Virus record (IMG/VR): IMGVR_UViG_3300028374_000070
Coordinates: 1 to 22,126 of that record
Strand: one strand, 5' to 3'
From: a virus
Length of the DNA stretch: 22,126 nt
The position numbers were made by a program, and so were the translations under genes. Numbering within the stretch: position 1 is the stretch's first letter; the number at the start of each line of letters is the position of its first letter. Below, piece by piece: positions 4,842 through 22,126 of the stretch. Below the pieces are notes generated by a model. That model saw only the letters and a program-made list of their open reading frames with translations, had not been told where the DNA came from and made no database searches.

Positions 4842-4849
4842 TATAAATA
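4842..4849 (+). promoter_or_regulatory. T4-type late promoter box TATAAATA before the 4855 gene
   Basis: This exact octamer is placed 5 nt before the ATG at 4855, the same spacing as at 9243, 17545 and 19986. A TTGACA at 4823-4828 lies 13-17 nt upstream, so a sigma70-like promoter (TTGACA with AATAAT at 4846-4851, spacer 17) could overlap it. Confidence 0.45.
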
Positions 4850-4854
4850 ATAGC

Positions 4855-5670
4855 ATGTCATCTAAAAAAATATTTTTTGTTTCTAATTATGGGCTGATGT
4901 ATGCCGCATCACAAATTTTATTAGAATACGCTGGGATAGTTCCAGAAAGGGTTCTTCACACTAAGTATTCTGAGGTTATTGATGATTTGGATACGTTTCT
5001 ATTTGAACATACTAACCATGGGGATACAATCATATTTATCGGGTTCAATTCAGATATTGAAAAGGGCGTCCGTAAAGTGTATAGTAAACATACGGGGTTC
5101 AAATTTTTAAATAATACCGATACTACCAATTCATTACATCAATCCATTGATATTTTCAAGAAATCTAATGTATCAAAGACATGCGATATCATAAATTTTG
5201 CAAGATATGCTAAAGATTGGGTATCAATGGACTTTAAGTATAAAGAATCATATATTTTAAACGTGTTGTTCAGGGTATTAGATTTTAACCAATTTTATTC
5301 TATATTTAATAAAGGGTATGACACTGAATGGGCTTCGAGTTGTATCCCATATGTTGTTGAACACATTAAAACGTTCAAAGCTCAGTCCCAAAATGTATAT
5401 GTGTTAAAGGGTTTCTACTTCGTTAACTCAAATATTCAATATTTAGATGATTATATGTATTATTATATACCCAAACTTGGCAACCTAAGCGTTATTGATA
5501 CAAAGAAGGGTAGGTTGTATCTAAGAAAGCATCCAGACTGCGAGAAAGACATTCTCACGTTCGCAAACAAGGTATGCGACGATACAGTTGGATATAAAAA
5601 TTTATGTTCAGCAAATATCTCAAAAACATTTCTAGAATTAACCAAACAAATTAAAAAATATGATCTATAA
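4855..5670 (+). CDS. Hypothetical protein between gp41 and the gp33-like gene, 271 aa
   Basis: The ATG at 4855 lies 5 nt behind a TATAAATA box, and the stop overlaps the next ATG by 11 nt. The N-terminal half has alternating beta strands and helices (KIFFVSNYGLMYAASQILLE, then TIIFIGFNSD), like a Rossmann-type or DHH-type phosphoesterase fold. The C-terminal region (LSVIDTKKGRLYLRKHPD) slightly recalls the end of DHH/DHHA1 proteins. The DHH signature itself is absent, so any such link would be to a divergent or inactive member. Its position between helicase and late-transcription/loader genes suggests a DNA-metabolism role. I do not recognise the family with confidence. Confidence 0.85.
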   Translation: MSSKKIFFVSNYGLMYAASQILLEYAGIVPERVLHTKYSEVIDDLDTFLFEHTNHGDTIIFIGFNSDIEKGVRKVYSKHTGFKFLNNTDTTNSLHQSIDIFKKSNVSKTCDIINFARYAKDWVSMDFKYKESYILNVLFRVLDFNQFYSIFNKGYDTEWASSCIPYVVEHIKTFKAQSQNVYVLKGFYFVNSNIQYLDDYMYYYIPKLGNLSVIDTKKGRLYLRKHPDCEKDILTFANKVCDDTVGYKNLCSANISKTFLELTKQIKKYDL

Positions 5671-6652: not shown

Positions 6653-7684
6653 ATGACAGATACACTAGATATGGACAGCCTGTTCGATGAAATTAGCTCA
6701 GGTTTTAAGAAGGAAAGTAGCACTGGGGGTAGTTCTTTTTATAAGGATATTCTTAAGTTTGAAAAAGATAAGGATTATATCGTAAGGTTGCTTCCTAATC
6801 GTAAGGATGCGGAGCATACAATTTATCCAATTGAATATCATGGTTGGAAGAGTTGTTCGACTGGTAAATACATGGAGGTAGTTGATCCTTCTCGTCTTGA
6901 CCTACCAAATCCAATTAAACAATATTCCTATGAACTGGGTGCTAAGTTGAAAGCATTGAAATTGGATGTGACAGACCCTCGTATGATCCGTGGTCGGTCT
7001 ATTTGGACAAATGAGACATGGCTACTTAATTGCTATGTTATTTCTGATCCAACAAATCCCGAAAACGAAGGAAAGGTTAAAATCATTCGTGCAGGTTCGG
7101 TATTATTCAATGATGTGATCCATGACCACTGGAAGGGAGAACGTGCTGATGAATACGGCAATCGCATTTTTGACCCATCATCAAACGGGTGTAATTTAAA
7201 AATCCGATGCACTGATAAGGGTGGTAACAGCACTAGTAAGATGAACGTTGAATACAATAAGTCATACTTTATGTCAGCGTCGGCAATTGAAGGCGTGTCG
7301 GATAGTCTTGAAAAGATGATTGAAACACTTGATAGTTGTCACGATCTTACATCAGTTTACCCAATTAAGACCGAGGAAGAGCTTAAGGAAATCCTTAATA
7401 CTCACTTCATTGGTGGTAAAGACCTTACTGTATTGCAAGATGACGAGGAAGGGACGCCAAAGGGTGAGGCTGCACCTAAGATGAATGATGTTAGTGATAT
7501 GTTCAATACAGCTTTTCCAACTCCAAAGGTTGAATCAACTCCAAAGGTTGAATCAACTCCAAAGGTTGAATCAACTCCAAAGGTTGAATCAACTCCAAAG
7601 GTTGAATCAACTCCAAAGGTTGAATCAACTCCAAAGAAGGATACATCAACTCCAACTATTGATGACCTATTAGCTGACATATAA
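6653..7684 (+). CDS. 32: Single-stranded DNA-binding protein, T4 gp32 family
   Basis: gp32 coats single-stranded DNA at the fork and organises the replisome. I choose the ATG at 6653 behind AAAGGAAATAAA. A TTG at 6623 is in frame but lies in the leader hairpin. The product is 343 aa (T4: 301). Matches to T4 include IVRLLPNRKD near residue 43, NPENEGKV at about 134-141, and the acidic end DDLLADI (T4 DDLLNDL), the C-terminal segment that contacts partner proteins. Two features are odd. The zinc-binding CPVC of T4 is replaced by LPNP near residue 83, leaving only HGW and one Cys of the site. The linker before the C-terminal tail consists of six TPKVES repeats. Confidence 0.93.
   Translation: MTDTLDMDSLFDEISSGFKKESSTGGSSFYKDILKFEKDKDYIVRLLPNRKDAEHTIYPIEYHGWKSCSTGKYMEVVDPSRLDLPNPIKQYSYELGAKLKALKLDVTDPRMIRGRSIWTNETWLLNCYVISDPTNPENEGKVKIIRAGSVLFNDVIHDHWKGERADEYGNRIFDPSSNGCNLKIRCTDKGGNSTSKMNVEYNKSYFMSASAIEGVSDSLEKMIETLDSCHDLTSVYPIKTEEELKEILNTHFIGGKDLTVLQDDEEGTPKGEAAPKMNDVSDMFNTAFPTPKVESTPKVESTPKVESTPKVESTPKVESTPKVESTPKKDTSTPTIDDLLADI
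7520..7636 (+). repeat. 18-bp tandem repeat, six copies plus a half, in gp32
   Basis: The unit ACTCCAAAGGTTGAATCA repeats identically six times from 7520 to 7627 and continues for 9 bp. It encodes TPKVES hexapeptides, a Pro/Lys/Glu linker between the DNA-binding core and the acidic C-terminal tail of gp32. Identity at the DNA level, including third positions, indicates recent expansion by slippage or unequal recombination, so the copy number may vary between relatives. Confidence 0.95.
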
Positions 7685-9962: not shown

Positions 9963-10847
9963 ATGGATATAGTTATATTAGGAAGAGGGTATATATCGGG
10001 AAAAATTCAGAAGTTTTGGGAGTTGCCAGATGTAAATATTATTCAGGTTTCCCGATCTGAATACGATTATTTGAGTCCGTTCCAGTTTGATAATATGGTA
10101 AATAAATACAAGCCATCATACATTATCAATACATATGGATACACTGGTAAGCCAAATGTTGACGCATGTGAGGATAATGTGATGGAATGTTACAATAGAA
10201 ACTACTATGACCAAATATCAATTCACGAAAATTCAAAACATCATAACATCCCAGTAATTACAGTTTCGTCTGGTTGTATTTATAATGATGAGACTGGTGA
10301 ACGATCATTTACTGAGGATGACCCACACACATTTGGAGATACTAATCCAACTACATCTACATACTCTAAGACTAAGTCTAAATTTGATTCGTGGTTCGCA
10401 AATAGCGAATATAGCAAGAAAAATTACATTCTAAGAATTAGAATGCCATTTTGTGATCTTGATGATGATAAGGACTATTTAGGTAAAATTCTGAAATATG
10501 ATAAGTTAGTCAATTATAAAAATTCAGTAACCTATATTCCTGACCTTGTATTGTTTATAGAAGAAATAATTGATCGAAAAGATATTCCATATGGTATTTA
10601 TAATATTGTAAACACATATGGGATCAATTGTGAAGAGATTTATGCCATTGCTAAAAATTTTACAATGGTTAAATACCCTAAAAAATGGTATACGGGCGAT
10701 GAATTACTATCTATGGGGATAATGAAGTGTCGTAGAAGTAATTGTGTCTTAGATAACAATAAAGCATCACAATATTGTAGTTTTTTCGATGCGCGAACCG
10801 CTGTTAAAATAGCATTAGAGGAACATTTTGAACATAATGAAAAATAA
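9963..10847 (+). CDS. Bifunctional 3,5-epimerase/4-reductase of NDP-rhamnose synthesis (UER1/NRS-ER type)
   Basis: This is an extended short-chain dehydrogenase of 294 aa. A nucleotide-binding GRGYIS lies at residues 7-12, TGKPNVDACE matches the TGRPNVDWCE motif of plant UER1/RHM C-terminal domains, SSGCIYN matches their ATGCIF, and STYSKTKSK carries the catalytic YxxxK. LRIRMPF and the later RSNCVLDN also fit that family, which includes the mimivirus rhamnose enzyme. Such enzymes convert NDP-4-keto-6-deoxyglucose to NDP-L-rhamnose in one protein, replacing the separate bacterial RmlC and RmlD. The RmlA and RmlB genes that would supply its substrate follow directly, overlapping by about 11 nt. 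A plain RmlD-type reductase is the alternative, but no RmlC gene is visible. Confidence 0.8.
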   Translation: MDIVILGRGYISGKIQKFWELPDVNIIQVSRSEYDYLSPFQFDNMVNKYKPSYIINTYGYTGKPNVDACEDNVMECYNRNYYDQISIHENSKHHNIPVITVSSGCIYNDETGERSFTEDDPHTFGDTNPTTSTYSKTKSKFDSWFANSEYSKKNYILRIRMPFCDLDDDKDYLGKILKYDKLVNYKNSVTYIPDLVLFIEEIIDRKDIPYGIYNIVNTYGINCEEIYAIAKNFTMVKYPKKWYTGDELLSMGIMKCRRSNCVLDNNKASQYCSFFDARTAVKIALEEHFEHNEK

Positions 10848-11622
10848 AACTACATATGGGGTAATATTAGCTGGTGGGCACGGCTCAAGGTTAAAAAATT
10901 ACACAACAACAGTTGGAAATAAACATCTTGCTCCTGTATATTCAGGACATGGCGCAACGCCAATGATTGATTATCCAGTGTCTACCCTTATAGAGATGGG
11001 TATTACCAAGATTCTGATAATTACCTCACAAAAACATTGTGGGCAAATTGTAGAGCATCTTGGTGATGGGTTTGATAGGGGCGTGGAGTTCACATATAAG
11101 ATTCAAGAGATGAACGACCCCAATAGACCCGCTGGTATAGCATCTGCACTTAAATTAGCACAAGATTTTACTGGTGAACATAATTTTGTGGTTATTTTAG
11201 GGGATAATTATTTTGAGTGGGATGATTATTTCAAAATTTGGTTGGATGAGTTTAAAAAATCCAATGAGTTTAAGTGTGGTCTATTTTTATATAAAACTGA
11301 TAAATGGTCAGAATTTGGAGTAGCTCAGTTATCTAAAAATGTAGATAAACGTGGATATATAAACATAGAACAGATCGTCGAAAAGCCGAAAAAATATGTA
11401 TCAGATTTGGCCGTAACTGGCATGTATGTTTATACACCAGATGTTTATCAGTATTTAGATGAATTGAAGCCGTCTGAACGTGGGGAACTAGAAATATCCC
11501 ATATTAACGACATGTATGCAAAAGAAAACTTGACAATGTGGGTCAAGTTTGATACATTTTGGTCTGATATGGGACAAGTTGAATCAATGATATCAACTCA
11601 AAATTATATTAATGGAAAATAA
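10837..11622 (+). CDS. rmlA: Glucose-1-phosphate nucleotidylyltransferase (RmlA family)
   Basis: The enzyme makes NDP-glucose from glucose-1-phosphate and a nucleoside triphosphate (dTTP in classical RmlA), the first step towards dTDP-sugars. The 261-aa product, from the ATG at 10837, has the nucleotide-binding LAGGHGSRL near residue 10 and the PMIDYPVSTLIEMGI segment. Further on come PAGIASAL (for the usual PEGLAQA), the metal-binding ILGDNYF at about residue 120, EKPKKYVSDLAVTG and RGELEISHIND. It is slightly shorter than bacterial RmlA (about 290 aa), lacking part of the C-terminal helices. A TTG at 10828 is in frame but unnecessary. It overlaps both neighbours by 11 nt, in line with a single translational unit. 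Strict dTTP preference cannot be judged from sequence. Confidence 0.88.
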   Translation: MKNKTTYGVILAGGHGSRLKNYTTTVGNKHLAPVYSGHGATPMIDYPVSTLIEMGITKILIITSQKHCGQIVEHLGDGFDRGVEFTYKIQEMNDPNRPAGIASALKLAQDFTGEHNFVVILGDNYFEWDDYFKIWLDEFKKSNEFKCGLFLYKTDKWSEFGVAQLSKNVDKRGYINIEQIVEKPKKYVSDLAVTGMYVYTPDVYQYLDELKPSERGELEISHINDMYAKENLTMWVKFDTFWSDMGQVESMISTQNYINGK

Positions 11623-12586
11623 AAATATTATTGTCACAGGCGGCTACGGGTTTGTTGGTTCTAACTTTATTAATTATCTAATTGATAATTTCGATAGTTT
11701 TAATCTTATTAATCTTGATAAAGAGGGTGTGGGATCAAATAAAACATTTGTTAAACCAACTCGCCTTGATACACAAACTATCATTCATCTAAAATGGGAT
11801 ATTTCTCATGATCTACTTGCTAAACAGGACATTATTGATCTTCCGTTTGATTATCTATTCCATTTTGCCGCAGAGAGCCATGTAGATCGTTCAATTTCAT
11901 CCCCTAGAGGCTTTATTACATCTAATGTGATGGGAACTATGCAATTGCTTGAAAATGCCCATAAGATGGGTGTTAAGCGCATTATTAATGTTTCGACCGA
12001 CGAAATATACGGAAGTAAAAATAAAGGTTCTTCAAAAGAGACTGATAAATATAATCCATCATCAGTATATAGTGCATCAAAAGCATCAACAGAGTTATTA
12101 TGTAATGCATATATTGAAACATATAGTATGGATATTGTCACAACGCGGTGTTCTAATAATTATGGGACAAACCAATTCGAAGAAAAGTTAATTCCAAAAG
12201 TTATCAAGAATGCTTTAGCTGGTGAAAAAATTCCTATTTATGATGAAGGATTGCAGAGTAGAGAGTGGACACATGTCGATGATCATATCAAAGATTTATT
12301 ATTTGTTGCTGAACATGGTAAGAAAGGGCAAATTTATAATGTTGGAAAAGGATATGAAATCGCAAATATTGATTTAGTTAAGAAGATTTTAGAAATTCTT
12401 GATAAACCTGAAGATTTGATTGAGTTTATTCCAAATGGGCGTAAAGGACATGACTTTAGATATTCTATTAATACATCAAAGTTGAAGAAATTACGTCAAT
12501 CGGTTCTTAATAATCAACTTGACAAAAATGTAGCATATGACGTATTCACAGAACGGTTAGTAGAAGTTGTCGAGGGTTATCTATGA
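11612..12586 (+). CDS. rmlB: NDP-glucose 4,6-dehydratase (RmlB family)
   Basis: The enzyme converts NDP-glucose to NDP-4-keto-6-deoxyglucose with bound NAD. The 324-aa product is near the usual 330-360. It contains the NAD motif TGGYGFVGSN at residues 9-18, HFAAESHVDRS at about residue 86, the catalytic STDEIYGS at about 128, and YSASKAS with the catalytic Tyr and Lys at about 153. The later TRCSNNYGTNQ and YDEGLQSREW segments bind the nucleotide-sugar and are typical of RmlB. The ATG at 11612 overlaps rmlA by 11 nt, and the stop overlaps the next ATG by 4. Together with the first two genes it forms a complete three-protein route to an activated rhamnose or its 4-keto precursor. Confidence 0.92.
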   Translation: MENKNIIVTGGYGFVGSNFINYLIDNFDSFNLINLDKEGVGSNKTFVKPTRLDTQTIIHLKWDISHDLLAKQDIIDLPFDYLFHFAAESHVDRSISSPRGFITSNVMGTMQLLENAHKMGVKRIINVSTDEIYGSKNKGSSKETDKYNPSSVYSASKASTELLCNAYIETYSMDIVTTRCSNNYGTNQFEEKLIPKVIKNALAGEKIPIYDEGLQSREWTHVDDHIKDLLFVAEHGKKGQIYNVGKGYEIANIDLVKKILEILDKPEDLIEFIPNGRKGHDFRYSINTSKLKKLRQSVLNNQLDKNVAYDVFTERLVEVVEGYL

Positions 12587-12789
12587 AAAAATACTTACTA
12601 AGAATATATTGGAGGAGGCCCGTAGTTAATCCATCACTATGGCCATTTACGCATCATACAGGGGAATATATATTTCGAGTCGATTCTGAGGGAGAATTAA
12701 ATGAACATATAAAGCATATGAAAAATAAAGCTATAGTTGAGAATTACGGTAGGGAACTTATAACTATTGAAACATTTAAGAGCTTATAA
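12583..12789 (+). CDS. Small basic hypothetical protein, 68 aa
   Basis: The ATG at 12583 overlaps the rmlB stop (ATGA), and the exonuclease ATG follows 1 nt after its stop, so it is embedded in the operon. The 68-residue product is basic and aromatic at the N-terminus (MKKYLLRIYWRRP), then polar. It is too short for a glycosyltransferase and has no motif I recognise. Confidence 0.65.
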   Translation: MKKYLLRIYWRRPVVNPSLWPFTHHTGEYIFRVDSEGELNEHIKHMKNKAIVENYGRELITIETFKSL

Positions 12790-12790
12790 C

Positions 12791-13696
12791 ATGAAAAATT
12801 TATTTATAGATGGCGGTAATTTACTAATGCGGTCATATTACTCACCACAAAACAAACCATTTACAAACTCTGTCGGTAAAGAAGTTGGACATATACTATG
12901 TTATATGAAGAATCTGCTATCTTTACAAGAACGATTTGAGGCTGATAACATATTTATAGCATGGGATATTCGCGATACTGAGTTTATTAACTTTAGGCAG
13001 GATGCTGTTGGATATAAAGCAACACGCGACCGTTCTGATGAAGAAGACTCACATAGATGTGATAAGGTTATTTGGGCAATGTGTGAATATTTAGGTATTA
13101 GAAACATGCGAGCTAACAAATTAGAGGCAGATGACATCATTTCATGGTTATGCTCTGAATATCCTAATGATGATAATGTAATCGTATCAAATGATAAGGA
13201 TTTTCTACAATTAATCAATTACTATCCCTCAATTAAAATTTTTTCACCAATTAAACAAGAACTAATAAATGAAAGCAATCATAAGGAACATACAGATGGC
13301 GTCGATATTGATAAATACTTACTCTATAAGGCAATTATTGGTGATAAGTCTGATAACATTAGTGGATTATTTCGATATGGCCCTGTGAAGGCTAGAAAGA
13401 TCGTAGAAAATGTTTCTGAGGGATTATCAGCATTATCAGATGAAAATAAAGCAATTATCAAGCGCAATATGTGGATTATGGACTTGAGAAAGGGATTAGA
13501 TCAATATTCCGATGAAATTGAATTTTATTCAGACCAAATTGTTGATATAGACCCCAATTTAAGTATGTTCTTTGAAGTTACAGAAAAACTTGGGTTATTT
13601 AGTATTTACAATAATAAAAGTGTGTGGCGTGATAAGTTTGGTGGGTTTAAGGCGGGAGATATGTTGCAAAATATAATGAATTCAATAAATAATTAA
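12791..13696 (+). CDS. 5'-3' exonuclease / flap endonuclease (T4 RNase H role)
   Basis: This FEN-family nuclease probably removes RNA primers and 5' flaps from lagging-strand fragments. It is 301 aa, like T4 RNase H (305). Acidic metal-binding motifs appear in order: LFIDGGNLLMRSYY at residues 3-16, the Asp/Glu cluster LEADDIISWL near 113, SNDKDFLQL near 138, and the helix-hairpin-helix region GDKSDNISGL near 185. The AWDIRDTEF and YKATRD segments match the family's bridge region. I start at the ATG at 12791; an in-frame TTG at 12767 lies inside the preceding ORF. The sequence looks closer to the generic PolI/T5-type exonuclease pattern than to enteric T4 Rnh. Confidence 0.87.
   Translation: MKNLFIDGGNLLMRSYYSPQNKPFTNSVGKEVGHILCYMKNLLSLQERFEADNIFIAWDIRDTEFINFRQDAVGYKATRDRSDEEDSHRCDKVIWAMCEYLGIRNMRANKLEADDIISWLCSEYPNDDNVIVSNDKDFLQLINYYPSIKIFSPIKQELINESNHKEHTDGVDIDKYLLYKAIIGDKSDNISGLFRYGPVKARKIVENVSEGLSALSDENKAIIKRNMWIMDLRKGLDQYSDEIEFYSDQIVDIDPNLSMFFEVTEKLGLFSIYNNKSVWRDKFGGFKAGDMLQNIMNSINN
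13684..13691 (+). promoter_or_regulatory. Late promoter-like box AATAAATA before 13698
   Basis: The box lies in the last codons of the exonuclease gene, followed by ATTAAT and the ATG at 13698. It has a one-base difference from TATAAATA. Confidence 0.3.
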
Positions 13697-13697
13697 T

Positions 13698-13886
13698 ATG
13701 GATAACTACAATAACTATAATCATACACGCAAATGTAACAATTGCCCAGGTGCAGTGGCTCGCGCTCGTTGCAACGAAGTTCACGCATATAACGAAATTA
13801 TAGTGGAGGCAAAATATATTTGCCCACGATGTGGAACAATGTTCCATCGTGAGGAAGTTTCGCGCCGCCCTAAAGATCAGAAGTGA
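13698..13886 (+). CDS. Small zinc-ribbon protein, 62 aa
   Basis: The protein has two Cys pairs, CNNC (residues 13-16) and CPRC (43-46), with a further Cys between them. Such pairs typically bind one zinc ion in a ribbon fold. The rest is polar and basic, which suits contact with nucleic acid or RNA polymerase. The start at 13698 is 1 nt after the exonuclease stop. It lies just before the portal gene and its promoter hairpin. I do not recognise the exact family. Confidence 0.72.
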   Translation: MDNYNNYNHTRKCNNCPGAVARARCNEVHAYNEIIVEAKYICPRCGTMFHREEVSRRPKDQK

Positions 13887-13900
13887 TAAGTAATATTTGA

Positions 13901-13925
13901 TTATTTATGCCATATGCATAAATAA
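13901..13925 (+). promoter_or_regulatory. Perfect inverted repeat spanning the gp20 late promoter
   Basis: TTATTTATGC (13901-13910) and GCATAAATAA (13916-13925) are exact complements around CATAT. The right arm contains the promoter box CATAAATA (13917-13924), and the left arm carries the same box on the other strand. In RNA made from upstream the 10-bp stem would stand 5 nt before the gp20 ATG at 13931. RNA begun at the late promoter (predicted near 13930) would lack it. It may also act as a weak terminator or as an operator. Confidence 0.6.
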
Positions 13926-13930
13926 TTAAT

Positions 13931-15715
13931 ATGGCATTATTAGATTCATTAAGAGGCGGGTTTCGGAACGAAATGTTGTCCACACTCCAATCGATGGCTC
14001 CATATTCCAGTAGGAATATGGTTGACATGATTAGTGTGGACAATCCTAAATATAAAGATTTTCATACAAAAGGGACTAGACGAGAGGAATTACTATCCAA
14101 TCATAGTATATCTCAGGGTAATCCATTTGGCAACGCTAACCACCCAATGGGTGACTTTGGTAGTAATGGTGATTATCATACGTTCATGTATGCTAATATC
14201 GAACCAGATAAGGGTAAACGACTGAGCGAATATAGATTAATGTCGGGATATGATTTTATATCTACTGCACTTGATGAAATCTGTGATGAATTTATTGTTA
14301 TTGATGATAGAGAAGAAATTATTAATTTTAGAGTTGATGAAAGACTCGACAAAGCATCAAGAAAAACAATCAAGGAAGAGTTTACAAAATTTGTCCAACA
14401 TTTCGATCTAGAAAATAAAGGTTGGGAGTATTGCCGCAATCTTCTGGTTGACGGAGAACTGTTTTTTGAAAATGTTATTGCAGATGGTAAGGAAGATAAA
14501 GGTATTTTGGGGATTGTAAGTATCCCAAACGAAAGTATTGACCCAATTTTCAATAATGTTCAAAATTTAATTGTTCGTGGTTACTTGATGAGAAAACCCA
14601 TCTACGATGAAGCCCAAAAACAAGTGAAAGAGGTTGTCCCAATTGTTTTTGATACTAATCAGGTTACGTATTTTAATTCTAATGAGTGGAATGAGCAAAA
14701 AACATTCAGATTACCGCATGTCGAAAAGGCACGTAGAGCATACAAGCAATTAAATATGATCGAGGATAGTATTGTTATCCATAGACTTGTAAATGCCCCC
14801 GAAAAACTCGTTTTTAAGGTCGATGTAGGCAACATGTCTCAACCGCAAGCTGAGCGATACCTACAGCAATTAGCACAACGGTATTGGTCAAAGAAAACGT
14901 ATGATTCTAACCAAGGTGGTGTCAACATGTTTAACCCTCAGAGTATGTTGGACGCATTTTGGTTTCCAAAACGTGCGGGGAGTGAGGGGACAGATGTATC
15001 AAGATTGCAAAATAATGGCGGGAACCTTGGCGACTTACCCGATTTAGCATTCTTTACTAATAAATTATATAAATCACTAAGTGTCCCTGTAACAAGACTT
15101 ACAGAGTCAACTGGATATAGTGACGGAACGGATATGCTTCGCGAAGAGCTAAAATTTGCACGTTTTATTATTCGTTTGCAACGACAGTTCTCCGAAACTA
15201 TGAAACGCGCATTTATTACGCACTTGAAACTGCGCGGATGGTGGGAGGAATATAAACTTCGTCCAACTGACTTAAAAATTCATATGAATGAGCCAACTGC
15301 ATTCAATACTCTTCGCAAACAACAAATTTTTGAAATTGAGAGTAATAATTACGCAGGTATGGTTAGTAACGAGCTTATTTCCGAAACATATGGTCAAAAA
15401 TTATATCTTAGAATGACAGATGAAGAAATTCTTGCAAATAAAGAATGGCTACGTAAAGATATGGAATTTAAGTGGGAACTTCAAAATATTGGTCAATTTG
15501 GACCAGATTGGAGAAAACAGGCTGAAAACGCTGAAGGTCAAGCTGCTGAAGATTTTAATCCGGAGGGTGGAGATTTAGGTGGTGGTGGCGGTGGAATGGG
15601 CGGAGAAACCGAATTTGGAGGAGATGGGGGCAGTGTCCCACCTGAAGACTTTGGAGCCGCACCTGACGCTGGTGGAGATGCTGGTGGAGACGCTGGAACA
15701 GATGAAGAGGTTTAA
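13931..15715 (+). CDS. 20: Portal vertex protein, T4 gp20 family
   Basis: gp20 forms the dodecameric ring at one capsid vertex through which DNA is packaged and to which the neck attaches. The product is 594 aa (T4: 524). Characteristic segments include RLSEYRLMSGYDFISTALDE near residue 97, the core AYKQLNMIEDSIVIHRLVNA near 272-291, PEKLVFKVDVGN, DAFWFPKRAGSEGTDVSRL and FFTNKLYKSLSVPVTRL. The extra length is mainly a C-terminal Gly/Asp/Glu-rich tail (about residues 545-594), probably disordered. The start lies behind CATAAATAATTAAT with no Shine-Dalgarno sequence. The amidoligase-like gene begins 2 nt after the stop, so the two are likely co-transcribed late. Confidence 0.95.
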   Translation: MALLDSLRGGFRNEMLSTLQSMAPYSSRNMVDMISVDNPKYKDFHTKGTRREELLSNHSISQGNPFGNANHPMGDFGSNGDYHTFMYANIEPDKGKRLSEYRLMSGYDFISTALDEICDEFIVIDDREEIINFRVDERLDKASRKTIKEEFTKFVQHFDLENKGWEYCRNLLVDGELFFENVIADGKEDKGILGIVSIPNESIDPIFNNVQNLIVRGYLMRKPIYDEAQKQVKEVVPIVFDTNQVTYFNSNEWNEQKTFRLPHVEKARRAYKQLNMIEDSIVIHRLVNAPEKLVFKVDVGNMSQPQAERYLQQLAQRYWSKKTYDSNQGGVNMFNPQSMLDAFWFPKRAGSEGTDVSRLQNNGGNLGDLPDLAFFTNKLYKSLSVPVTRLTESTGYSDGTDMLREELKFARFIIRLQRQFSETMKRAFITHLKLRGWWEEYKLRPTDLKIHMNEPTAFNTLRKQQIFEIESNNYAGMVSNELISETYGQKLYLRMTDEEILANKEWLRKDMEFKWELQNIGQFGPDWRKQAENAEGQAAEDFNPEGGDLGGGGGGMGGETEFGGDGGSVPPEDFGAAPDAGGDAGGDAGTDEEV

Positions 15716-15717
15716 TT

Positions 15718-17490
15718 ATGAAAAACTTTTTAGAATTCTATATCGAATCAGCAGTTCCGTTTGATAAGCGTAGGGAAATACGTAAAGGTTTAAAAAAGAA
15801 ATACGGTAATAAACTTTTTAAACCATATACATTTGGTTTCGACATTGAGTTCACTATCACTCGCGATATGGACGAAGTTAGAGACCATCTTGACCATATA
15901 AATATAGAATATGACAATGATGATGATTATAAATTATATGTTAATGGTTTATATAAAAAACAAAAACAAGACCTAGATTATGATGACATTGATGATTGGG
16001 AAAGTGATCATCCTGAGCCAGATGAAGATGATTATTATGACGAAGATGATTGGACAACTGATTATAATACTTGGTATAGTCAAAAGGAGAGTTTGGAAGA
16101 GACGTTAGCTGAAAACAATAATTTGTTGGAAGATCTTAAAGAGACCAGCCAAGAAGAATATATTAAACAAATATTATCTAATGGAAAATGGGAGGAATAT
16201 TTTCCAAATAAAGGTGGACAAATTGAGGGGGATATCGAATATGTTTCTGAACAAATCGAAGAAATTCTTTCATCATATGATATTGACCCAGATGACTTCA
16301 CATGGGAAGTGCATGAAGATGAGACAAGAAATATAGAGATTGTGTCACCAATTTTAAGAACAAAAGACATCCCAATAGCAATGGAAGTATTAAATAATTT
16401 AAATATTGGCGAAGCGGGTGCGGGAACGTCTGCGCATGTTCATATCGGCTTACCTGAAACATTTGATTATTTTGACTTATTAGTGTTATATGATTTAGTT
16501 GATGAAGATACGATTAATAAAGTAGAGCCAGATAGAGCACGCGGTTATACCGAATTGAAAAATGTGATGTATAGACAGCTTGCAATATTTCTAAATACAT
16601 ATGAAATGGGTAGCGATATAGACGTTGGGGACTTCCGTAAAATACAAACTGAAAAACGCATGGGTGTAAATATTTCTAAGGTGAGTGGGGGGGTTGTAGA
16701 CAGTAATAAAAAGGGTGATAAATCAAAATCTGGAAAGGGTCGCACAATTGAGTTTAGATATCTTTCATCACGTATATTAGATGATACCGAGCAGTTTTTT
16801 GAGTGGATTGAATATTACATGACATTAGTCAAACTTGCCGAATCAAGGGGTAGATTTAAATTCCAACATTCTGATCAAACATATGTATTAACACGCATAT
16901 CAAAAAATAAAATTCATTATGATGACCACGAAACTGGTAGACCATATGAAAAACAAACTGACATCAAAGATACGATATCAAAGTCGGATAATAGAAAAGT
17001 CATGTTAAAAGAGTTGAGTGATATACACAAAGATCTCCCAAGTAATTTGAAAATTAAATATCCATTACCCGACATTAACAATATGTCAAACGCACAAATT
17101 GATAAATTTTTACTACAAAATAGTGAATTAGCACATTGGTATGTTTCGGGAAAGCGTTTCAATAATAAAGATTATGAAATACCAAAAGAATTTATCGAAA
17201 AGATTTCAGAAGATGTATTACAAGGTATAAAATTAGTAACGCAAACTAGAACTGGTTTACGTAGAAACTTCGTTGTTGAAAATAAGCTATTGAATACGCC
17301 AGAGTCACAGTTAGATGAAAACAATATAATAAGATATACTATAGCAATGGCATTATACTTACAGCATCTATATCGGCAAGATTATTTTAAACATTTCGAT
17401 GTTGAAATAACAAATAAAATTAGACAAACGGAGGACTTAGGTGAGGCCAGACGTTTATTTAAGGAAGTTTTAGACAATAACGATAAATAA
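15718..17490 (+). CDS. Amidoligase-like (GCS-type COOH-NH2 ligase) protein with a possible capsid-targeting N-terminus
   Basis: The 590-aa protein resembles the predicted Amidoligase_2 family, whose members join a carboxylate to an amine using ATP. Three motifs support this: FGFDIEFTI at about residues 39-47 (Glu for metal binding), HVHIGL at about 240-245, and RTIEFRYLSS at about 342-351. A very acidic insert (about residues 90-125, rich in Asp, Glu and Tyr) is unusual. The N-terminus MKNFLEFYIESAV closely follows MKTYQEFIAEASV of T4 internal head proteins, the peptide that directs them into the prohead and is then removed by gp21. The gene lies between portal and neck genes. Inference: a packaged enzyme, perhaps delivered with the DNA. 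The substrate is unknown. Confidence 0.75.
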   Translation: MKNFLEFYIESAVPFDKRREIRKGLKKKYGNKLFKPYTFGFDIEFTITRDMDEVRDHLDHINIEYDNDDDYKLYVNGLYKKQKQDLDYDDIDDWESDHPEPDEDDYYDEDDWTTDYNTWYSQKESLEETLAENNNLLEDLKETSQEEYIKQILSNGKWEEYFPNKGGQIEGDIEYVSEQIEEILSSYDIDPDDFTWEVHEDETRNIEIVSPILRTKDIPIAMEVLNNLNIGEAGAGTSAHVHIGLPETFDYFDLLVLYDLVDEDTINKVEPDRARGYTELKNVMYRQLAIFLNTYEMGSDIDVGDFRKIQTEKRMGVNISKVSGGVVDSNKKGDKSKSGKGRTIEFRYLSSRILDDTEQFFEWIEYYMTLVKLAESRGRFKFQHSDQTYVLTRISKNKIHYDDHETGRPYEKQTDIKDTISKSDNRKVMLKELSDIHKDLPSNLKIKYPLPDINNMSNAQIDKFLLQNSELAHWYVSGKRFNNKDYEIPKEFIEKISEDVLQGIKLVTQTRTGLRRNFVVENKLLNTPESQLDENNIIRYTIAMALYLQHLYRQDYFKHFDVEITNKIRQTEDLGEARRLFKEVLDNNDK

Positions 17491-17491
17491 T

Positions 17492-17520
17492 CATGTGATA
17501 GATGAAGATGACATCATATG
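17492..17520 (+). promoter_or_regulatory. Inverted repeat between the amidoligase-like gene and gp13
   Basis: CATGTGAT (17492-17499) can pair with ATCATATG (17513-17520) with one G-U pair and a 13-nt loop. There is no U-run after it. It may mark an RNA end or be processed. Its role is uncertain. Confidence 0.3.
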
Positions 17521-17544
17521 ATTACTTATATTATTCGCCAAGTT

Positions 17545-17552
17545 TATAAATA
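17545..17552 (+). promoter_or_regulatory. T4-type late promoter box TATAAATA before gp13
   Basis: This is an exact octamer, followed by ATTAT and the ATG at 17558. With T4 geometry (-13 to -6), +1 falls on the A of the start codon, giving a leaderless message. Confidence 0.6.
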
Positions 17553-17557
17553 ATTAT

Positions 17558-18469
17558 ATGCCAGAGCCACTTTCATCATTTTATTCCACACATTTAAATT
17601 CTAGAGTCAATTCCATTGAGACGTTAGCGTGTAGGAATCTGAGGTTCCTTGGTGGAAATTTAGCTTCGGTGGAGCTAAGTCAGGATATGGGCTTCGAATC
17701 TATCGCTAAGGCGGTTGAGTTATATACTCAATACACTGAGCCAAGTAGAGAATACCTTTTATTCGATTCTCAAATTTATACTCCAGGCGTTGGTATTAAA
17801 ATGGAAGCATTGTTTAATGCAACACCTGAACTATCTTCAGCATATGATTTAGCTGATCCAAATACTGTAGTTGGGAGAGATTATGATTTACAGGATTATA
17901 GGAAAGTTATTGATGTTCGTAATATGGAAGTTGGGGAGAACCAAGGCGCAAATATTCTATTTACTGTTCAATATGCAATGATTCAACAGATGGGTGCACT
18001 GATGCATTCAGGTGGTATGAATAAGGGATTTGATTTGGTGTCATGGTATAATATGAACGAATTCTTAGAGCTTCGTAACAAGATGCTAGCCCTCCATGTT
18101 GAATGTAGATTTGATCCACACACACAATTATTAAGATTGTTCCCAGAACCGACTGGTGCAGAGGCATATGGTAGTCAAAGTAGGGGGTTTGGTAAGTATT
18201 ATGGTCTTGTTGAATGTTATGTAGAACCTAGATTTCGGGATTGTTTAAAAAACCATTGGGTTCAAGAATATTCATTGGCTTTAATGAAAATTATGGTTGG
18301 AAATGTAAGAGGTAAGCTCAACGGAACTCAGTTATTAGGTGGTGGAACAATCAATTGGGATACATTTATGAGTCAAGGTAGAGAAGATAAATTACGCCTA
18401 GAAGAGCAATTACTAAATGGAACTGGTGGTTTTGCAAATGCAGCACCACCTCAAATGTTGATTTGGTAA
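17558..18469 (+). CDS. 13: Neck / head-completion protein, gp13 family
   Basis: In T4, gp13 joins gp14 to form the neck that closes the filled head and binds the tail. The 303-aa product is close to T4 gp13 (309). The best evidence is the C-terminal block (HWVQEYSLALMKIMVGNVRG followed by QLLGGGTINWDTF), which matches the ALAK..IG..RGK..G.QLLGGG pattern I know from gp13 of marine T4-like phages. The central LRLFPEPTGAEAYG also fits. N-terminal regions are only generally similar. No Shine-Dalgarno sequence is present. In T4 gene 13 is next to 14 and 15, whereas here it lies after gp20, so the head module is rearranged. Confidence 0.75.
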   Translation: MPEPLSSFYSTHLNSRVNSIETLACRNLRFLGGNLASVELSQDMGFESIAKAVELYTQYTEPSREYLLFDSQIYTPGVGIKMEALFNATPELSSAYDLADPNTVVGRDYDLQDYRKVIDVRNMEVGENQGANILFTVQYAMIQQMGALMHSGGMNKGFDLVSWYNMNEFLELRNKMLALHVECRFDPHTQLLRLFPEPTGAEAYGSQSRGFGKYYGLVECYVEPRFRDCLKNHWVQEYSLALMKIMVGNVRGKLNGTQLLGGGTINWDTFMSQGREDKLRLEEQLLNGTGGFANAAPPQMLIW

Positions 18470-18487
18470 TTTCTAAATAATGCCAAA
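18462..18487 (+). promoter_or_regulatory. Possible start-masking hairpin at 18480
   Basis: TTTGGTA (18462-18468) can pair with TGCCAAA (18481-18487), including one G-U pair, around a 12-nt loop that contains TCTAAATA. The 3' arm includes the last two bases of the ATG at 18480. It resembles the gp21 arrangement but is weaker, and the late-box geometry would place +1 inside the gene, so the promoter reading is doubtful. Confidence 0.25.
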
Positions 18488-19034
18488 ATTTAAACAGTTT
18501 ATCTTATTAGAGATGCCCCAACATTTTCATTCTGGTGATGATATAGCAGTAAACGATCCAAAGGCCAACTACGCTATTACGCAGTCATATAAACAGACTC
18601 ATATAAACATCGACACTATTCAATTTCAGAATGACGAAATCGATGTATATTATGATGGTAATAAAAGCGGTGGGGACTATGCATTCATCTCAGGTGACAA
18701 AACACTTGCAGAATATAGCTATGGCGCACATGATAGTGGGTTTATTCAAACTGATACAATTTGGCAAGATAAGGCATATCGCGGTATATTTAGATTTATT
18801 TTTGTAACATATTTATTACCAAAATATAAAACTATTATATCTGATCATAGATTAACTCAACTAGGATTTAATTTTTGGGTAAAGTTATTCAATGATTATA
18901 ATTCAAAATTTCAGTTTGGTATCTTCAACATGGATAGTAACGAAACAATTAAAATTGATTCGGGGGAAGAATTTAAAAAATATTATTCTGAATTGGAAGA
19001 GATGAAAAAGTGGCGATTCTACGTAATGTTATGA
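18480..19034 (+). CDS. Possible internal head protein, GNAT-like, 184 aa
   Basis: The N-terminus MPKFKQFILLEM resembles the capsid-targeting peptides of T4 internal proteins (M..[FY].[EQ]FI..E), so the product may be packed into the prohead and trimmed by gp21. The remainder has a strand-rich first half. It is followed by AYRGIFRFIFVTYLLPKY and ISDHRLTQLGFNFWVKLF, which recall the acceptor region of small N-acetyltransferase (GNAT) proteins. The acetyl-CoA loop (RGxGxG/A) is degenerate (YRGIFR), so activity is uncertain. It lies between gp13 and gp4 genes in the head module. The family call is tentative, but the gene itself is clear. Confidence 0.7.
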   Translation: MPKFKQFILLEMPQHFHSGDDIAVNDPKANYAITQSYKQTHINIDTIQFQNDEIDVYYDGNKSGGDYAFISGDKTLAEYSYGAHDSGFIQTDTIWQDKAYRGIFRFIFVTYLLPKYKTIISDHRLTQLGFNFWVKLFNDYNSKFQFGIFNMDSNETIKIDSGEEFKKYYSELEEMKKWRFYVML

Positions 19035-19037
19035 CTA

Positions 19038-19526
19038 ATGGCTCGATCAAGGAAGCAGTTTAAGTCAGGTGTATATAGACCATTCAATAGTCAAAAGTTT
19101 GGTGAGTCAAAATGTGTTTATAGGTCATCATTTGAGTTAGATTTCTTAAAATGGTGTGACCAAAACTCTAAAGTTATGGATGTTAAATATGAAAAGGTAA
19201 TCATTCCATATCTATGTAAAATAGACGGTAAAATGCATAGATATTATGTAGATTGTAAGATTGTCTTAAAGGAAACAAATGGGTTAAAGACATATCTGAT
19301 AGAAATCAAACCATTTAATCAAACGTTACCCCCAAAAGAGAGTAAACGTAAGAAAAAAACTACAATTATATATGAACATCTAGCATGGGCTAAAAATACA
19401 AGCAAATGGGATTATGCTAAACAGTTTTGTAAAAAACATAATTATCGTTGGTGTATATTAACCGAAAAGGGTATTTATATCGATGATAAATTTTTTGAAG
19501 GTAAAATGTTTGGAAAAACTAAATAA
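19038..19526 (+). CDS. 4: Head completion protein, T4 gp4 family (nuclease-like fold)
   Basis: T4 gp4 (also called 50/65) finishes the DNA-filled head so that the neck can attach; it resembles TnsA/restriction-type nucleases. The 162-aa product (T4: 150) matches well: KFGESKCVYRSSFELDFLKW followed by CDQNSKV, VIIPY, HRYYVDCKIV and YLIEIKPFNQTLPP, then basic residues. The Glu of SSFEL, the Asp of YVDC and the EIK triad fit a PD-(D/E)XK metal site, with Glu, Asp and E-x-K in order. It starts 3 nt after the previous stop. The assignment rests on several aligned blocks recalled from T4 gp4. Confidence 0.9.
   Translation: MARSRKQFKSGVYRPFNSQKFGESKCVYRSSFELDFLKWCDQNSKVMDVKYEKVIIPYLCKIDGKMHRYYVDCKIVLKETNGLKTYLIEIKPFNQTLPPKESKRKKKTTIIYEHLAWAKNTSKWDYAKQFCKKHNYRWCILTEKGIYIDDKFFEGKMFGKTK
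19518..19525 (+). promoter_or_regulatory. Late promoter-like box ACTAAATA before 19532
   Basis: The box ACTAAATA lies at the end of the gp4 gene, followed by ATTAAA and the ATG at 19532. CTAAATA-type boxes are used as late promoters in some cyanophages. The match to TATAAATA is weaker. Confidence 0.3.
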
Positions 19527-19531
19527 TTAAA

Positions 19532-19990
19532 ATGAATGCGTTCAACAATCAGTTTGAAAAATTAAAAAAAGTATACACAGAGTCCCCAGAGAGTTACAAG
19601 GGTTCGACTGTAGAATCTAAGGATGTAATAACGTTTGTTTACTTTATCCCAACGGGCGCAATTGCGTATGGTAATAAGGGCGAGGAATTATATCACACGA
19701 CGATTCTGCGTCACTTTAAAGGTAAGCATCATGAGAGTTTAAATGTTAAAGGCGATATAGATAAGAATAATATCGAAGCTGATACAGTTATAACAGGTAG
19801 AATATGGGTTGACTCAAAAAAATTAGCAATTTGGGACTATATTGGTAATTTCTATGAAGATATAGACTTCCAATCGTGCCTACATAATATTGGAGCATTT
19901 TTTGGAGCAAATTTACATCAATATCAGATCGAGGTGACGAAATTAACAGGTGACGATGTAAAAAATGCAAAAGAGATTAAATTTACATAA
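19532..19990 (+). CDS. Hypothetical protein in the head module, 152 aa
   Basis: The start at 19532 lies behind the ACTAAATAATTAAA context. The protein begins MNAFNNQFEKLKKVYTESPE, an amphipathic helix that could again be a targeting or attachment segment, followed by an alpha/beta domain (ITFVYFIPTGAIAYG, DTVITGRIWVDSKKLAIWDY). I recognise no family. Its position between gp4 and the lipoprotein gene, and the late-promoter context, suggest a structural or assembly role. Confidence 0.75.
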   Translation: MNAFNNQFEKLKKVYTESPESYKGSTVESKDVITFVYFIPTGAIAYGNKGEELYHTTILRHFKGKHHESLNVKGDIDKNNIEADTVITGRIWVDSKKLAIWDYIGNFYEDIDFQSCLHNIGAFFGANLHQYQIEVTKLTGDDVKNAKEIKFT

Positions 19991-19993
19991 ATA
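19986..19993 (+). promoter_or_regulatory. Late promoter-like box CATAAATA before 19999
   Basis: The box CATAAATA is followed by ATTAT and the ATG at 19999, with the same 5-nt spacing as the exact box at 17545. Predicted transcription would start at the ATG. Confidence 0.45.
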
Positions 19994-19998
19994 ATTAT

Positions 19999-20163
19999 AT
20001 GAAATGGTTAATTATACTAGCAATACTCTTCATAACTGGTTGTTCAACTCCACCTGTTCATAAATCCAAACCTATTGTTGTAGAAAAAATAGGTGGATCA
20101 TCAGTTGTAGTGGAAGTTCATGGTAATCTAACAAGGATATATTCATCTAAAGCAAAGGAATAA
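19999..20163 (+). CDS. Small lipoprotein, 54 aa
   Basis: The product starts with a lipoprotein signal: MKW, a hydrophobic run (LIILAILFI) and a lipobox ITGC with the acylated Cys at residue 15. The mature part, about 40 residues, begins STPPVHKSKP and is short and polar, like outer-membrane spanins or other phage lysis lipoproteins. It lies 1 nt before the membrane-protein gene at 20165. If it is an o-spanin, the partner would be a protein with one N-terminal membrane helix, which the next gene is not in classical form. An alternative is a lipoprotein that blocks superinfection at the host surface. Confidence 0.75.
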   Translation: MKWLIILAILFITGCSTPPVHKSKPIVVEKIGGSSVVVEVHGNLTRIYSSKAKE

Positions 20164-20164
20164 T

Positions 20165-20719
20165 ATGGGAACAATCGAAATTTTAAATTTTTTACTTAGT
20201 GGCGTAGGAGCCGCATTTTTAACTATATGGAAAAATAAGCAAGAGGATACACGCGCAGAACGTGAGTTTTATTTGCAGACAATATCTAAGCAAGCTGAGG
20301 CAACAAAAGACGCTCGTGAATATGAAGGCGTCCCAATTACTGAACAGTCTAGATTTATTAAGAAGAAAAAAACGTGGATGTTATTTGGAAAAGATTTCGG
20401 ATACGATTTTGAATCCAATGATAGTGGGACATATAAAGCATCTACAGGGTTTCATATGACACGTAGAATTATTGCGCTCTTATCTGTAATTTCATTAATT
20501 GTATTACCGATCATTTTACCAGTATTTTATGATGCAAGTGTTACATTTGGCTATGTTGAAAATAGTTGGACATTACTACCATGGGTAAGTGAAGTGCCTG
20601 TAGTTAAATGGATCACAGTTGGAGATGCAACTCGAAATGTAGTTATTACTCCGCTCATGTCTAACGTTTTAATCTCGGTTATATCTAGCTTTATGGGGAA
20701 TCAAATAACTAAAAGATAA
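20165..20719 (+). CDS. Membrane protein, holin-like or virion membrane protein, 184 aa
   Basis: There are three or four hydrophobic segments: residues 5-22 (ILNFLLSGVGAAFLTIW), about 102-121 (IIALLSVISLIVLPIILPVF), a weaker one about 130-150, and about 160-180. A charged helical region (residues 23-60, KNKQEDTRAEREFYLQTISK) lies between the first two. This general shape and its coupling to a small lipoprotein gene suggest a lysis role such as a holin with a cytoplasmic helix. No endolysin is nearby, and the gene is in the head module, so another membrane role is possible. The start is 1 nt after the previous stop. Confidence 0.75.
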   Translation: MGTIEILNFLLSGVGAAFLTIWKNKQEDTRAEREFYLQTISKQAEATKDAREYEGVPITEQSRFIKKKKTWMLFGKDFGYDFESNDSGTYKASTGFHMTRRIIALLSVISLIVLPIILPVFYDASVTFGYVENSWTLLPWVSEVPVVKWITVGDATRNVVITPLMSNVLISVISSFMGNQITKR

Positions 20720-20721
20720 TG

Positions 20722-20748
20722 CTCATTTTAATAAATAATTAAAATGAG
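20722..20748 (+). promoter_or_regulatory. Perfect 11-bp inverted repeat enclosing the gp21 late promoter and start codon
   Basis: CTCATTTTAAT (20722-20732) and ATTAAAATGAG (20738-20748) are exact complements around AAATA. The 3' arm contains the gp21 ATG (20744-20746). The box AATAAATA (20730-20737) sits at the tip. Transcripts from upstream can fold and hide the start codon. A transcript starting at the late promoter (near 20743) lacks the 5' arm. T4 gene e is known to be controlled in this manner. Confidence 0.65.
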
Positions 20749-21421
20749 TAATAATTTTAAATTAATTGTCGAGGATGTTGACCTAGATTCCTTTGAATAT
20801 ATTGTAGAAGAACAGAATAATAATTCTGATCGGAAGTATTATATTAAGGGGCCAATGATTCTTCTTGATGAGAAAAATCAGAACGGGCGTGTCTACGAAA
20901 GTTCTGAAATGATACCCGCTGTTGAAAAATATATTAAGGAATATGTTGAGACAAATAGAGCATTGGGTGAACTTGAACATCCAGAAAAACCCGATGTTAA
21001 TCTTAAACAAGCATGTGATAGAGTTGTATCGTTAGTCCGAGAAGGTAACATATACATAGGTAAATCAGTTTGTCTTTCAACACCCGTAGGTAAAATACAA
21101 GAGTCTCTTATACGAGATGGAGTAAAGTTAGGTAAGTCTACAAGATGTTTGGGACAATTAATTGAATCAAATGGCACAAACTATGTTAGATCACCAAATA
21201 TTAGAGCAATCGATACAGTTGCCAATCCATCTGGTCAAGGTAAAGATACAAGTTGTTTCATGAATGGTATTTTAGAAAATAAAGAATTTATAATTAACTA
21301 TAATCAAGGCAATGAAATTGTCTATGATGGGTTAGAAAAATCTATAAATTCTTTACCATCTAAAAAAATTGATGAATATCTTACTGAACAAATTTTAAAA
21401 TTTATCCGCAATATTCAATAA
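20744..21421 (+). CDS. 21: Prohead core protease, T4 gp21 family
   Basis: gp21 is the serine protease that cleaves scaffold, capsid and internal proteins after head assembly. The 225-aa product (T4: 212) keeps the main features: YYIKGPMILLDEKNQNGRVY near the N-terminus, the catalytic His at residue 79 in GELEHPEKP, GKIQESLIRDGVKLG, and the Ser nucleophile at residue 132 in GKSTRCLG, where other members have G[VI]SSRG.G. The ATG is inside the 3' arm of an 11-bp hairpin that also contains a late-promoter box. In T4 the scaffold and capsid genes follow; here an adhesin-like gene comes next. Confidence 0.92.
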   Translation: MSNNFKLIVEDVDLDSFEYIVEEQNNNSDRKYYIKGPMILLDEKNQNGRVYESSEMIPAVEKYIKEYVETNRALGELEHPEKPDVNLKQACDRVVSLVREGNIYIGKSVCLSTPVGKIQESLIRDGVKLGKSTRCLGQLIESNGTNYVRSPNIRAIDTVANPSGQGKDTSCFMNGILENKEFIINYNQGNEIVYDGLEKSINSLPSKKIDEYLTEQILKFIRNIQ

Positions 21422-21424
21422 CAT

Positions 21425-21469
21425 ATGCCAATCGTAACCCCATTTAATAGAGAAATAATTAATTTATGA
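21425..21469 (+). other. Mini-ORF (14 aa) before the adhesin gene
   Basis: The frame MPIVTPFNREIINL begins 3 bp after the gp21 stop and ends with TGA overlapping the ATG at 21466 (ATGA), as coupled genes do in this window. It may be a leader peptide or the stub of a gene replaced when the adhesin was inserted. It is too short to be certain. Confidence 0.25.
21450..21457 (+). promoter_or_regulatory. Weak late promoter-like box GAGAAATA before the adhesin
   Basis: The box GAGAAATA, followed by ATTAATTT and the ATG at 21466, repeats the AAATAATTAAT context of other starts but matches the octamer poorly. Confidence 0.2.
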
Positions 21470-22126
21470 ATGTGCAATTTAATGATTTAATCAAACAAGG
21501 TAGAGCAACTATTGAATTAGGTGTTTCTAATCCTAGTAGTTCAGGATATGCAGCAAGTATATCATCAATTGGAACATCAACTGATAATAAAACGTGGATT
21601 AAAGTTGGTGCAGGTGATACTGATTGGGAAAAACTTATTCAAGATAGTGATATAACAGCTGTTATTCCTGCTAGTCCTACTCTGATCGGCAACACAATCT
21701 TCGTAGCAAAAAACGGAACCAACACGCGCACAGGGCTTGACCCACACGACATCCGTAAACCGTTCCTGACTTGCGCAGCAGCACTTGCATCAGCAACTAG
21801 CGGAGACACGATACACGTATTTGCTGGCGACTACTCAGCAGAGGGAGCATTAGGTGGTAAAGATGGCGTGGACTGGACAATCGAGCAGGGTGCAATTAGC
21901 CCAAGCTTTGATGTCATAGGAGCATTTACGTTCACGATTGATGGTGATATTGGGGGGGTGTTTACTGTTAATAACGCAAGTGCAAATGTGGCATGTAAGG
22001 GGGATGTTGGGGGTGATATTCTTTGCGGTGGCGGAATTCAAACGGCAGGAAACGCGGGGACTTCTATTCAATGCTCTGGCGGAATTCAAATAGCAGGAAA
22101 CGCGGGAATTTACATTCAATGCTTTG
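21466..22126 (+). CDS. 5' part of a tail-fibre/adhesin-like protein with beta-helix repeats (continues past window)
   Basis: An open frame from the ATG at 21466 reaches the window end (220 codons seen). Residues 1-65 contain KTWIKVGAGDTDWEKL, a segment typical of phage fibre and structural proteins that anchors the molecule to the virion. From about residue 75 it changes to FVAKNGTNTRTGLDPHDI, then PFLTCAAALASA and SGDTIHVFAGDYS. This is the pattern of right-handed beta-helix (pectate-lyase-like) domains. The end shows 16-residue repeats (GGIQ.AGNAG). Base composition rises to about half G+C after roughly 21,665, unlike the rest of the window. I infer a mosaic host-recognition or polysaccharide-binding protein, placed where T4 has scaffold gene 22. 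Confidence 0.75.
   Translation, partial: MNVQFNDLIKQGRATIELGVSNPSSSGYAASISSIGTSTDNKTWIKVGAGDTDWEKLIQDSDITAVIPASPTLIGNTIFVAKNGTNTRTGLDPHDIRKPFLTCAAALASATSGDTIHVFAGDYSAEGALGGKDGVDWTIEQGAISPSFDVIGAFTFTIDGDIGGVFTVNNASANVACKGDVGGDILCGGGIQTAGNAGTSIQCSGGIQIAGNAGIYIQCF
22030..22126 (+). repeat. 48-bp tandem repeat (two copies, second cut by window end)
   Basis: A 48-bp unit starting GGCGGAATTCAAA begins at 22030 and again at 22078, and each copy encodes one 16-residue coil (GGIQ.AGNAG..IQC). Copies differ at several bases. More copies probably follow outside the window. Confidence 0.8.

Follow-up and report, generated by a model that had tools for sequence, protein, structure and literature searches.

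A hairpin enclosing the start codon and late promoter of a prohead protease gene, and predicted leaderless late mRNAs in a lineage of uncultured T4-like phages

Why should the start codon of a phage prohead protease gene be enclosed, together with its late promoter, in a perfect inverted repeat? The question is raised by a stretch of 22,126 b, here called the window, which is a fragment of an uncultured T4-like phage of bacteria. All its major genes lie on the + strand, among them those for the gp20 portal, the gp21 protease, gp13-like and gp4-like neck proteins, a DnaB-type helicase, a gp32-type SSB and a gp45-like clamp. The initial annotation had named gp21 a prohead protease, and profile matches support this label: the 225-aa ORF at 20744-21421 (+ strand) matches Pfam Peptidase_S77 (E 6e-19) and PHROG 207 (E 4e-46). 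Its start at 20744 is credible since the first residues are conserved, M1-S2 being invariant in the 67-68% relatives, and since there is no in-frame start upstream of the ATG.

The perfect 11-bp hairpin described at this start, with the late promoter inside it, was confirmed. Around the loop AAATA (20733-20737), every base of the 5' arm CTCATTTTAAT (20722-20732) finds its partner in the 3' arm ATTAAAATGAG (20738-20748), and the ATG (20744-20746) lies within the latter. With an outer G·U and an outer U-A the stem grows to 13 bp (20720-20750); its full 5' arm TGCTCATTTTAAT (20720-20732, + strand) stands directly 3' of the upstream stop codon and its full 3' arm ATTAAAATGAGTA occupies 20738-20750 of the same strand. 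The late box AATAAATA (20730-20737, + strand) runs across the tip, being made of three bases of the 5' arm and of the entire loop, which forms its 3' portion. The hairpin has an energy of -8.5 kcal/mol (z -8.1) and no match in an Rfam search. When the upstream 40 nt alone were shuffled, the 13-bp stem was regained in 0 of 3000 trials. Moreover, the window holds two perfect stems of at least 11 bp (loop 3-10), whereas its dinucleotide shuffles hold a mean of 0.15 per window; these two stems, at 20722-20748 (gp21) and at 13900-13926 (the gp20 start), both coincide with a late box adjoining an ATG. The gp21 hairpin is not due to chance.

Given that the hairpin begins one base past the upstream stop codon, it might serve as a terminator or 3'-end stabiliser of the gene that ends at 20719. 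However, there is no G+C-rich stem with a U run and the site was not called as a terminator, while the lineage has, at other places, many strong stems of a different form, AAACCC/GGGTTT. The hairpin also stays with gp21 in a relative, G026, in which the gene upstream of gp21 is a different one, which indicates that it travels with gp21. We regard a role at the end of the upstream gene as highly improbable.

The second stem supports the view that gp20, also a late gene of this phage, shares the hairpin design of gp21. The gp20-start hairpin, TTGATTATTTATGC / CATAT / GCATAAATAATTAA (13897-13929, + strand), has 14 bp with one G·U, and its helix reaches the A and the U of the ATG via a bulge. The late box CATAAATA (13917-13924, + strand) lies within its 3' arm, and the gene itself (13931-15715, + strand; 594 aa) is identified as the portal by profile matches and is located at the edge of the replication block. 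Shuffling the upstream 40 nt alone regained the stem in 5 of 3000 trials. In a 75% relative, G004, a related 12-bp stem, TTGATTATTTAT/ATAAATAATTAA, is found at the box preceding gp20; the 5' arm TTGATTATTTAT is common to both phages, but the loop is not, the ATG is farther off, and shuffles attain the G004 stem in 79 of 3000 trials. Between 13902 and 13924 the gp20 hairpin carries ATAAATA on both strands; with the inverted copy on the minus strand (13902-13908), late transcription could also initiate here in the opposite direction. This inverted copy in the 5' arm, and the retention of that arm in G004 in spite of the different loop, are what would be expected if the inverted repeats worked as DNA, either by serving a dimeric regulator as its operator or by forming two opposed late promoters. 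Yet the gp21 5' arm contains no inverted box, the palindromes of gp20, gp21 and the G026 gp21 have no common operator sequence beyond the promoter, and the recurring G·U pairs break a DNA palindrome, not an RNA helix. A function as DNA thus seems quite improbable.

As RNA, the hairpin has a marked effect on the start codon in thermodynamic predictions at 37 C. The gp21 AUG is paired in read-through RNA, with an unpaired probability of 0.001 where upstream shuffles average 0.43, and the RNA from 20700 to 20790 folds with an MFE of -16.8 kcal/mol. In RNA begun at 20743, the start inferred five bases past the box, the same AUG is unpaired with a probability of 0.893; such late RNA could not form the hairpin, because the 5' arm lies wholly upstream of this predicted start. 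Folding therefore supports both halves of the initial proposal, namely that read-through RNA would hide the gp21 start and that RNA from the late promoter, deprived of the 5' arm, would be free. In G026 the corresponding values are 0.002 for read-through RNA and 0.536 for late RNA (upstream shuffles average 0.36). The effect is weaker at gp20 than at gp21: the AUG is unpaired at 0.25 in read-through RNA versus 0.746 in late RNA, and its burial in read-through RNA is no better than in shuffles (frac 0.245).

The gp21 box AATAAATA is a close variant of the T4 octamer TATAAATA, which G026 carries; it is the T4-type variant with A at -13 (numbering per PMC2988020), which is present at nine T4 sites (PMC2988020). 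The reading as a late promoter is supported by a gp55-like late sigma factor encoded in the same phage. PHROG 234, a late sigma factor family, is matched in G001 (E 1.6e-8), a 60-kb contig whose gp20 is identical to that of the window and which was treated as the same phage, as well as in the relatives G005 (9e-26) and G017 (1e-20). Two paralogous late sigma factors of the gp55-like kind (148 and 114 aa) are found in a 206-kb relative, G031, at 177996-178322 (minus strand) and 24654-24977 (plus strand).

What the initial annotation missed is that the gp21 box abuts the ATG, so the predicted late RNA is leaderless, unlike that of T4 gene e. The T4 late box spans -13 to -6 (PMC2988020); a box 11 nt from the ATG therefore sets the A of the ATG exactly at +1. 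For gp21, T4 spacing (PMC2988020) together with the spacing cliff described below gives a predicted late transcription start at 20743 (+ strand), 1 base 5' of the ATG, and hence a predicted leader of 1 nt. The same arrangement recurs along the + strand of the window: TATAAATA at 4842-4849 abuts the ATG at 4855 of a 271-aa ORF of unknown function, AATAAATA at 13684-13691 that of a small cysteine-rich ORF (13698), TATAAATA at 17545-17552 that of the gp13-like neck protein (17558), the variant ACTAAATA at 19518-19525 the ATG at 19532, and CATAAATA at 19986-19993 that of a small lipoprotein-like ORF (19999). This last ORF (19999-20163, about 54 aa), which has a signal peptide and a lipobox-like LFITGC, has no PHROG match; followed by a membrane-protein ORF (20165-20719), it resembles a lysis (spanin-like) lipoprotein.

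The abutment extends across the lineage. Ten related contigs with 642 genes have a TAAATA-to-ATG distance of 10 nt at 1 gene, 11 nt at 68, 12 nt at 39 and 13 nt at 13, followed by a tail; among 585 genes of 77 further loci the counts are 4, 58, 23 and 16. Fourteen permutations of the hexamer, used as a control, average 3-6 at these distances; the highest count, 38, belongs to AATAAT, a hexamer that the element itself partly contains. Since 11 nt sets the A of the ATG at +1, the spacing cliff lies at the leaderless limit. The same scan of T4 and S-PM2 regions placed their boxes 19-46 nt from the ATG, with none at the 11-13 nt that dominate here, and in RM378, read by eye as a control, 0 of 7 gene starts had a box abutting the ATG. 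The abutting element is present at 33 of 58 recognisable late homologues versus 0 of 34 replication homologues (Fisher p 2e-9). From the spacing cliff and this late-gene specificity, the late mRNAs are predicted to be leaderless. Upstream of the box, no -35-like conservation was seen in the 11 bases tabulated.

An element at a fixed distance from the ATG, in a lineage with no Shine-Dalgarno enrichment, might be thought a signal for translation. According to this alternative, ATAAATAATTNNNATG would be the initiation signal of an SD-less host, of the Kozak-like A-rich kind described in Flavobacterium johnsoniae (PMC6847099), and the late-promoter part of our reading would be wrong. Replication genes also need translation, yet they lack the element altogether; the sequence is that of the gp55 octamer and gp55 homologues are present; and the spacings stop abruptly at their lower limit but trail off above it, the pattern predicted for a transcript obliged to contain the ATG. 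We thus give very little credence to a translation signal, and continue to read the element as a late promoter. Avoidance of Shine-Dalgarno sequences was also considered as proof of leaderless mRNAs and dropped: these sequences are weaker at box-abutting genes, but the lineage has no enrichment for them over the upstream control.

One late gene is an exception, as gp23 has no abutting box in any contig examined and is presumably made from longer RNAs. In close relatives (L013:10525, L004:7599 and others), a purine stretch of the AAGGAAA type, not an abutting promoter, stands near the gp23 ATG. In Pelagibacter phage HTVC008M (L051), the late box is found at the same short spacing at two gene starts, 4761 and 30831, with an SD-like AAGGA or GGGG adjoining.

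The hairpin itself is much less widespread than the box. Among other viral contigs the exact hairpin is found in L004 alone, whose gp21 is 100% identical to that of the window, and no relatives were found in bacterial genome contigs. The closest relatives by gp21 identity are G026 (70%), G017 (about 69%), G002 (68%) and G003 (67%). G026 has a hairpin at its gp21 start, TGCTTTGCATTTTA/TAAATAAT/TAAAATGCAAAGTA. Codon 2 of gp21 is CAA there versus AGT in the window, and each of the three pairs formed from that codon, beside the AUG, differs in both its partners (U-A to G-C, C-G to U-A and G·U to U-A). We considered and dropped a paired insertion of three bases in G026, because a gapless codon alignment accounts for the difference through substitutions together with a 5' arm displaced by one base. 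In G002 and G003, the box and spacer GATAAATAATTAAAATGAG are kept and the 5' arm is not, leaving arms that are non-complementary. Given that G026 clusters in the gp21 tree with these two hairpin-free phages (81% identical) and apart from the window (70%), the hairpin was either ancestral and then lost in G002 and G003, or arose twice. In G017 the geometry differs: the box, at a greater distance from the ATG, lies within the 5' arm, and burial of the AUG is partial (unpaired probability 0.166); the G017 gp21 is split by an apparent frameshift at 61795-61801 (L059), real or an assembly error.

Taken over 74 distinct gp21 contexts, an AUG unpaired probability below 0.01 occurs in only 2, those of the window and G026, and the low values of a few others are matched or nearly matched by their own shuffles. 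A perfect stem of at least 9 bp occurs at 0 of 109 box-ATG sites in the 77 further lineage loci. Conservation of the gp21 hairpin throughout the lineage was therefore rejected, and so was the idea that enclosure of late boxes in hairpins is the rule in the clade, since hairpins with p<0.01 occur at 3 of 56 box-ATG sites of the first contig set, all three in the window's phage. The expectation that relatives keep the pairing by compensatory changes was borne out in G026, with its three both-sided changes, and failed in G002, G003 and the wider lineage. Non-complementary arms in relatives were what the initial annotation had named as speaking against its proposal, and the idea of a conserved switch was given up on finding them in G002 and G003. 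Together with near-complete burial in only 2 of the 74 contexts, they make the gp21 hairpin a local elaboration.

This distribution brings forward the main alternative, in which the palindromes have no regulatory role and are mutational by-products, template switching having perfected imperfect palindromes in AT-rich promoter DNA. The 3' arm would be fixed by promoter and codons, the 5' arm would be a copy of it, and in G026 a single templated event would account for the change on both sides. It is the main alternative because the three neighbouring compensated pairs in G026 could indeed stem from a single event and because relatives manage without the hairpin. Such a process should, however, spread palindromes elsewhere as well, whereas in the window the only two perfect stems of at least 11 bp mark late start sites, and the same gene bears a palindrome in a sister phage. 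We consider a purely mutational origin unlikely, but less so than the other alternatives.

The explanation that we favour, and hold with moderate confidence, is that gp21 is expressed from a leaderless late mRNA while read-through RNA is silenced by the hairpin, with the same design at gp20. A gp55-type promoter, its box ending five bases before the start site, would drive gp21 late; the late mRNA would start at the AUG or 1 base earlier (5'-A-AUG-AGU...) and be leaderless; RNA reading in from upstream would carry the 5' arm, and its 13-bp hairpin would bury the AUG. Such RNA from upstream promoters would be silent for gp21, and perhaps for gp20 too, as burial of the AUG is proposed to prevent translation. 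The computed elements of this scheme are the hairpin and its non-random position, the both-sided changes in G026, the burial and release of the AUG in folding, the late-specificity and spacing of the box, and the gp55-like gene; from them we infer the start site, the read-through RNA, the translation loss and leaderless translation by the host. Early, replication and late genes all lie on one strand, and from 12500 to 22126 the strand never switches and a single weak + strand terminator was called; with this shared strand and so few terminators, it is possible that early RNA reads through into gp21. Against this counts that the genes immediately upstream of gp21 are themselves late and carry late boxes.

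The silencing logic is already known from T4 e, soc, 49 and I-TevI, in which inhibitory hairpins silence longer, upstream-initiated RNA (PMC3014915, PMC2988022). As proposed here, the initiation region is masked by a helix in RNA begun upstream, a late promoter within the 5' part gives rise to RNA free of the 5' arm, which is then translated, and a T4-type late box works with a late sigma factor. The T4 hairpins differ in that their late RNA keeps a leader with the Shine-Dalgarno, which is the sequestered part; here the late leader is predicted at 0-1 nt, burial affects the AUG itself, and structural genes (portal and prohead protease) are concerned. Silencing of the gene e or I-TevI type, as the initial annotation had suggested, is plausible here since the AUG is buried in read-through RNA and free in late-box RNA. 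The suggestion draws support from folding, the covariation in G026, the gp20 design and the gp55-like factor, and is weakened by the local occurrence of the hairpin and by the late neighbours.

The promoters likewise resemble T4 late promoters (gp55/gp33/gp45; PMC2988020, PMC7892883) in the octamer TATAAATA or its A(-13) variant with AT-rich DNA downstream, the lack of a conserved -35, the restriction to late genes and the presence of a gp55-like gene. As in leaderless mRNAs of bacteria and phages (e.g. PMC4633059), transcription would start at or beside the AUG, here by prediction, and the AR9 paper reported that phage transcripts are often leaderless (PMC5312081). In the open-access literature searched, which is limited evidence, we found no leaderless T4-type late promoters and none combined with a hairpin silencing the leadered version. 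What is predicted to be new here is that the late RNA has no leader, that the AUG is buried and not the SD, that structural genes are involved and that late promoter and start codon are fused across the lineage.

The lineage is probably that of the Far-T4 phages (Roux 2015, PMC4360716; marine, PMC7198788), which are likewise uncultured and T4-like, with gp20, gp23 and gp17 distant from those of T4 and cyanophages. Here gp20 and gp21 are at most about 33-39% identical to isolates, and the gp21 tree splits our set from S-PM2 and HTVC008M. The first Far-T4 paper mentioned no promoters and did not detect transcription-regulation core genes (PMC4360716), in contrast to the gp55-like genes found here. 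We put it at slightly better than even that the whole T4-like lineage fuses gp55-type late promoters to start codons, giving leaderless late mRNAs, and that in some members a promoter-AUG hairpin limits translation of portal and protease to those RNAs. If so, the timing of late proteins would be enforced twice, by the late sigma factor and by whether the RNA bears a leader, and hairpin gating, known for lysozyme and homing endonucleases, would extend to capsid assembly. Late 5' ends would be expected at the AUG throughout the lineage, which existing environmental transcript data could test, and the abutting box would offer a simple and strict signal for annotating late genes and true start codons in abundant uncultured phages.

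Three further features of the window may be mentioned. A 590-aa ORF at 15718-17490, between gp20 and the neck genes, weakly resembles Amidoligase_2, with an E of 5e-4 that does not reach the Pfam cut-off. The C-terminal tail of the gp32-like SSB (7480-7680) contains about seven VESTPK repeats. Finally, the replication block includes, at 9963-12586, three ORFs that resemble genes for dTDP-sugar synthesis (rmlD/rmlA/rmlB-like), as judged by eye from their translations.
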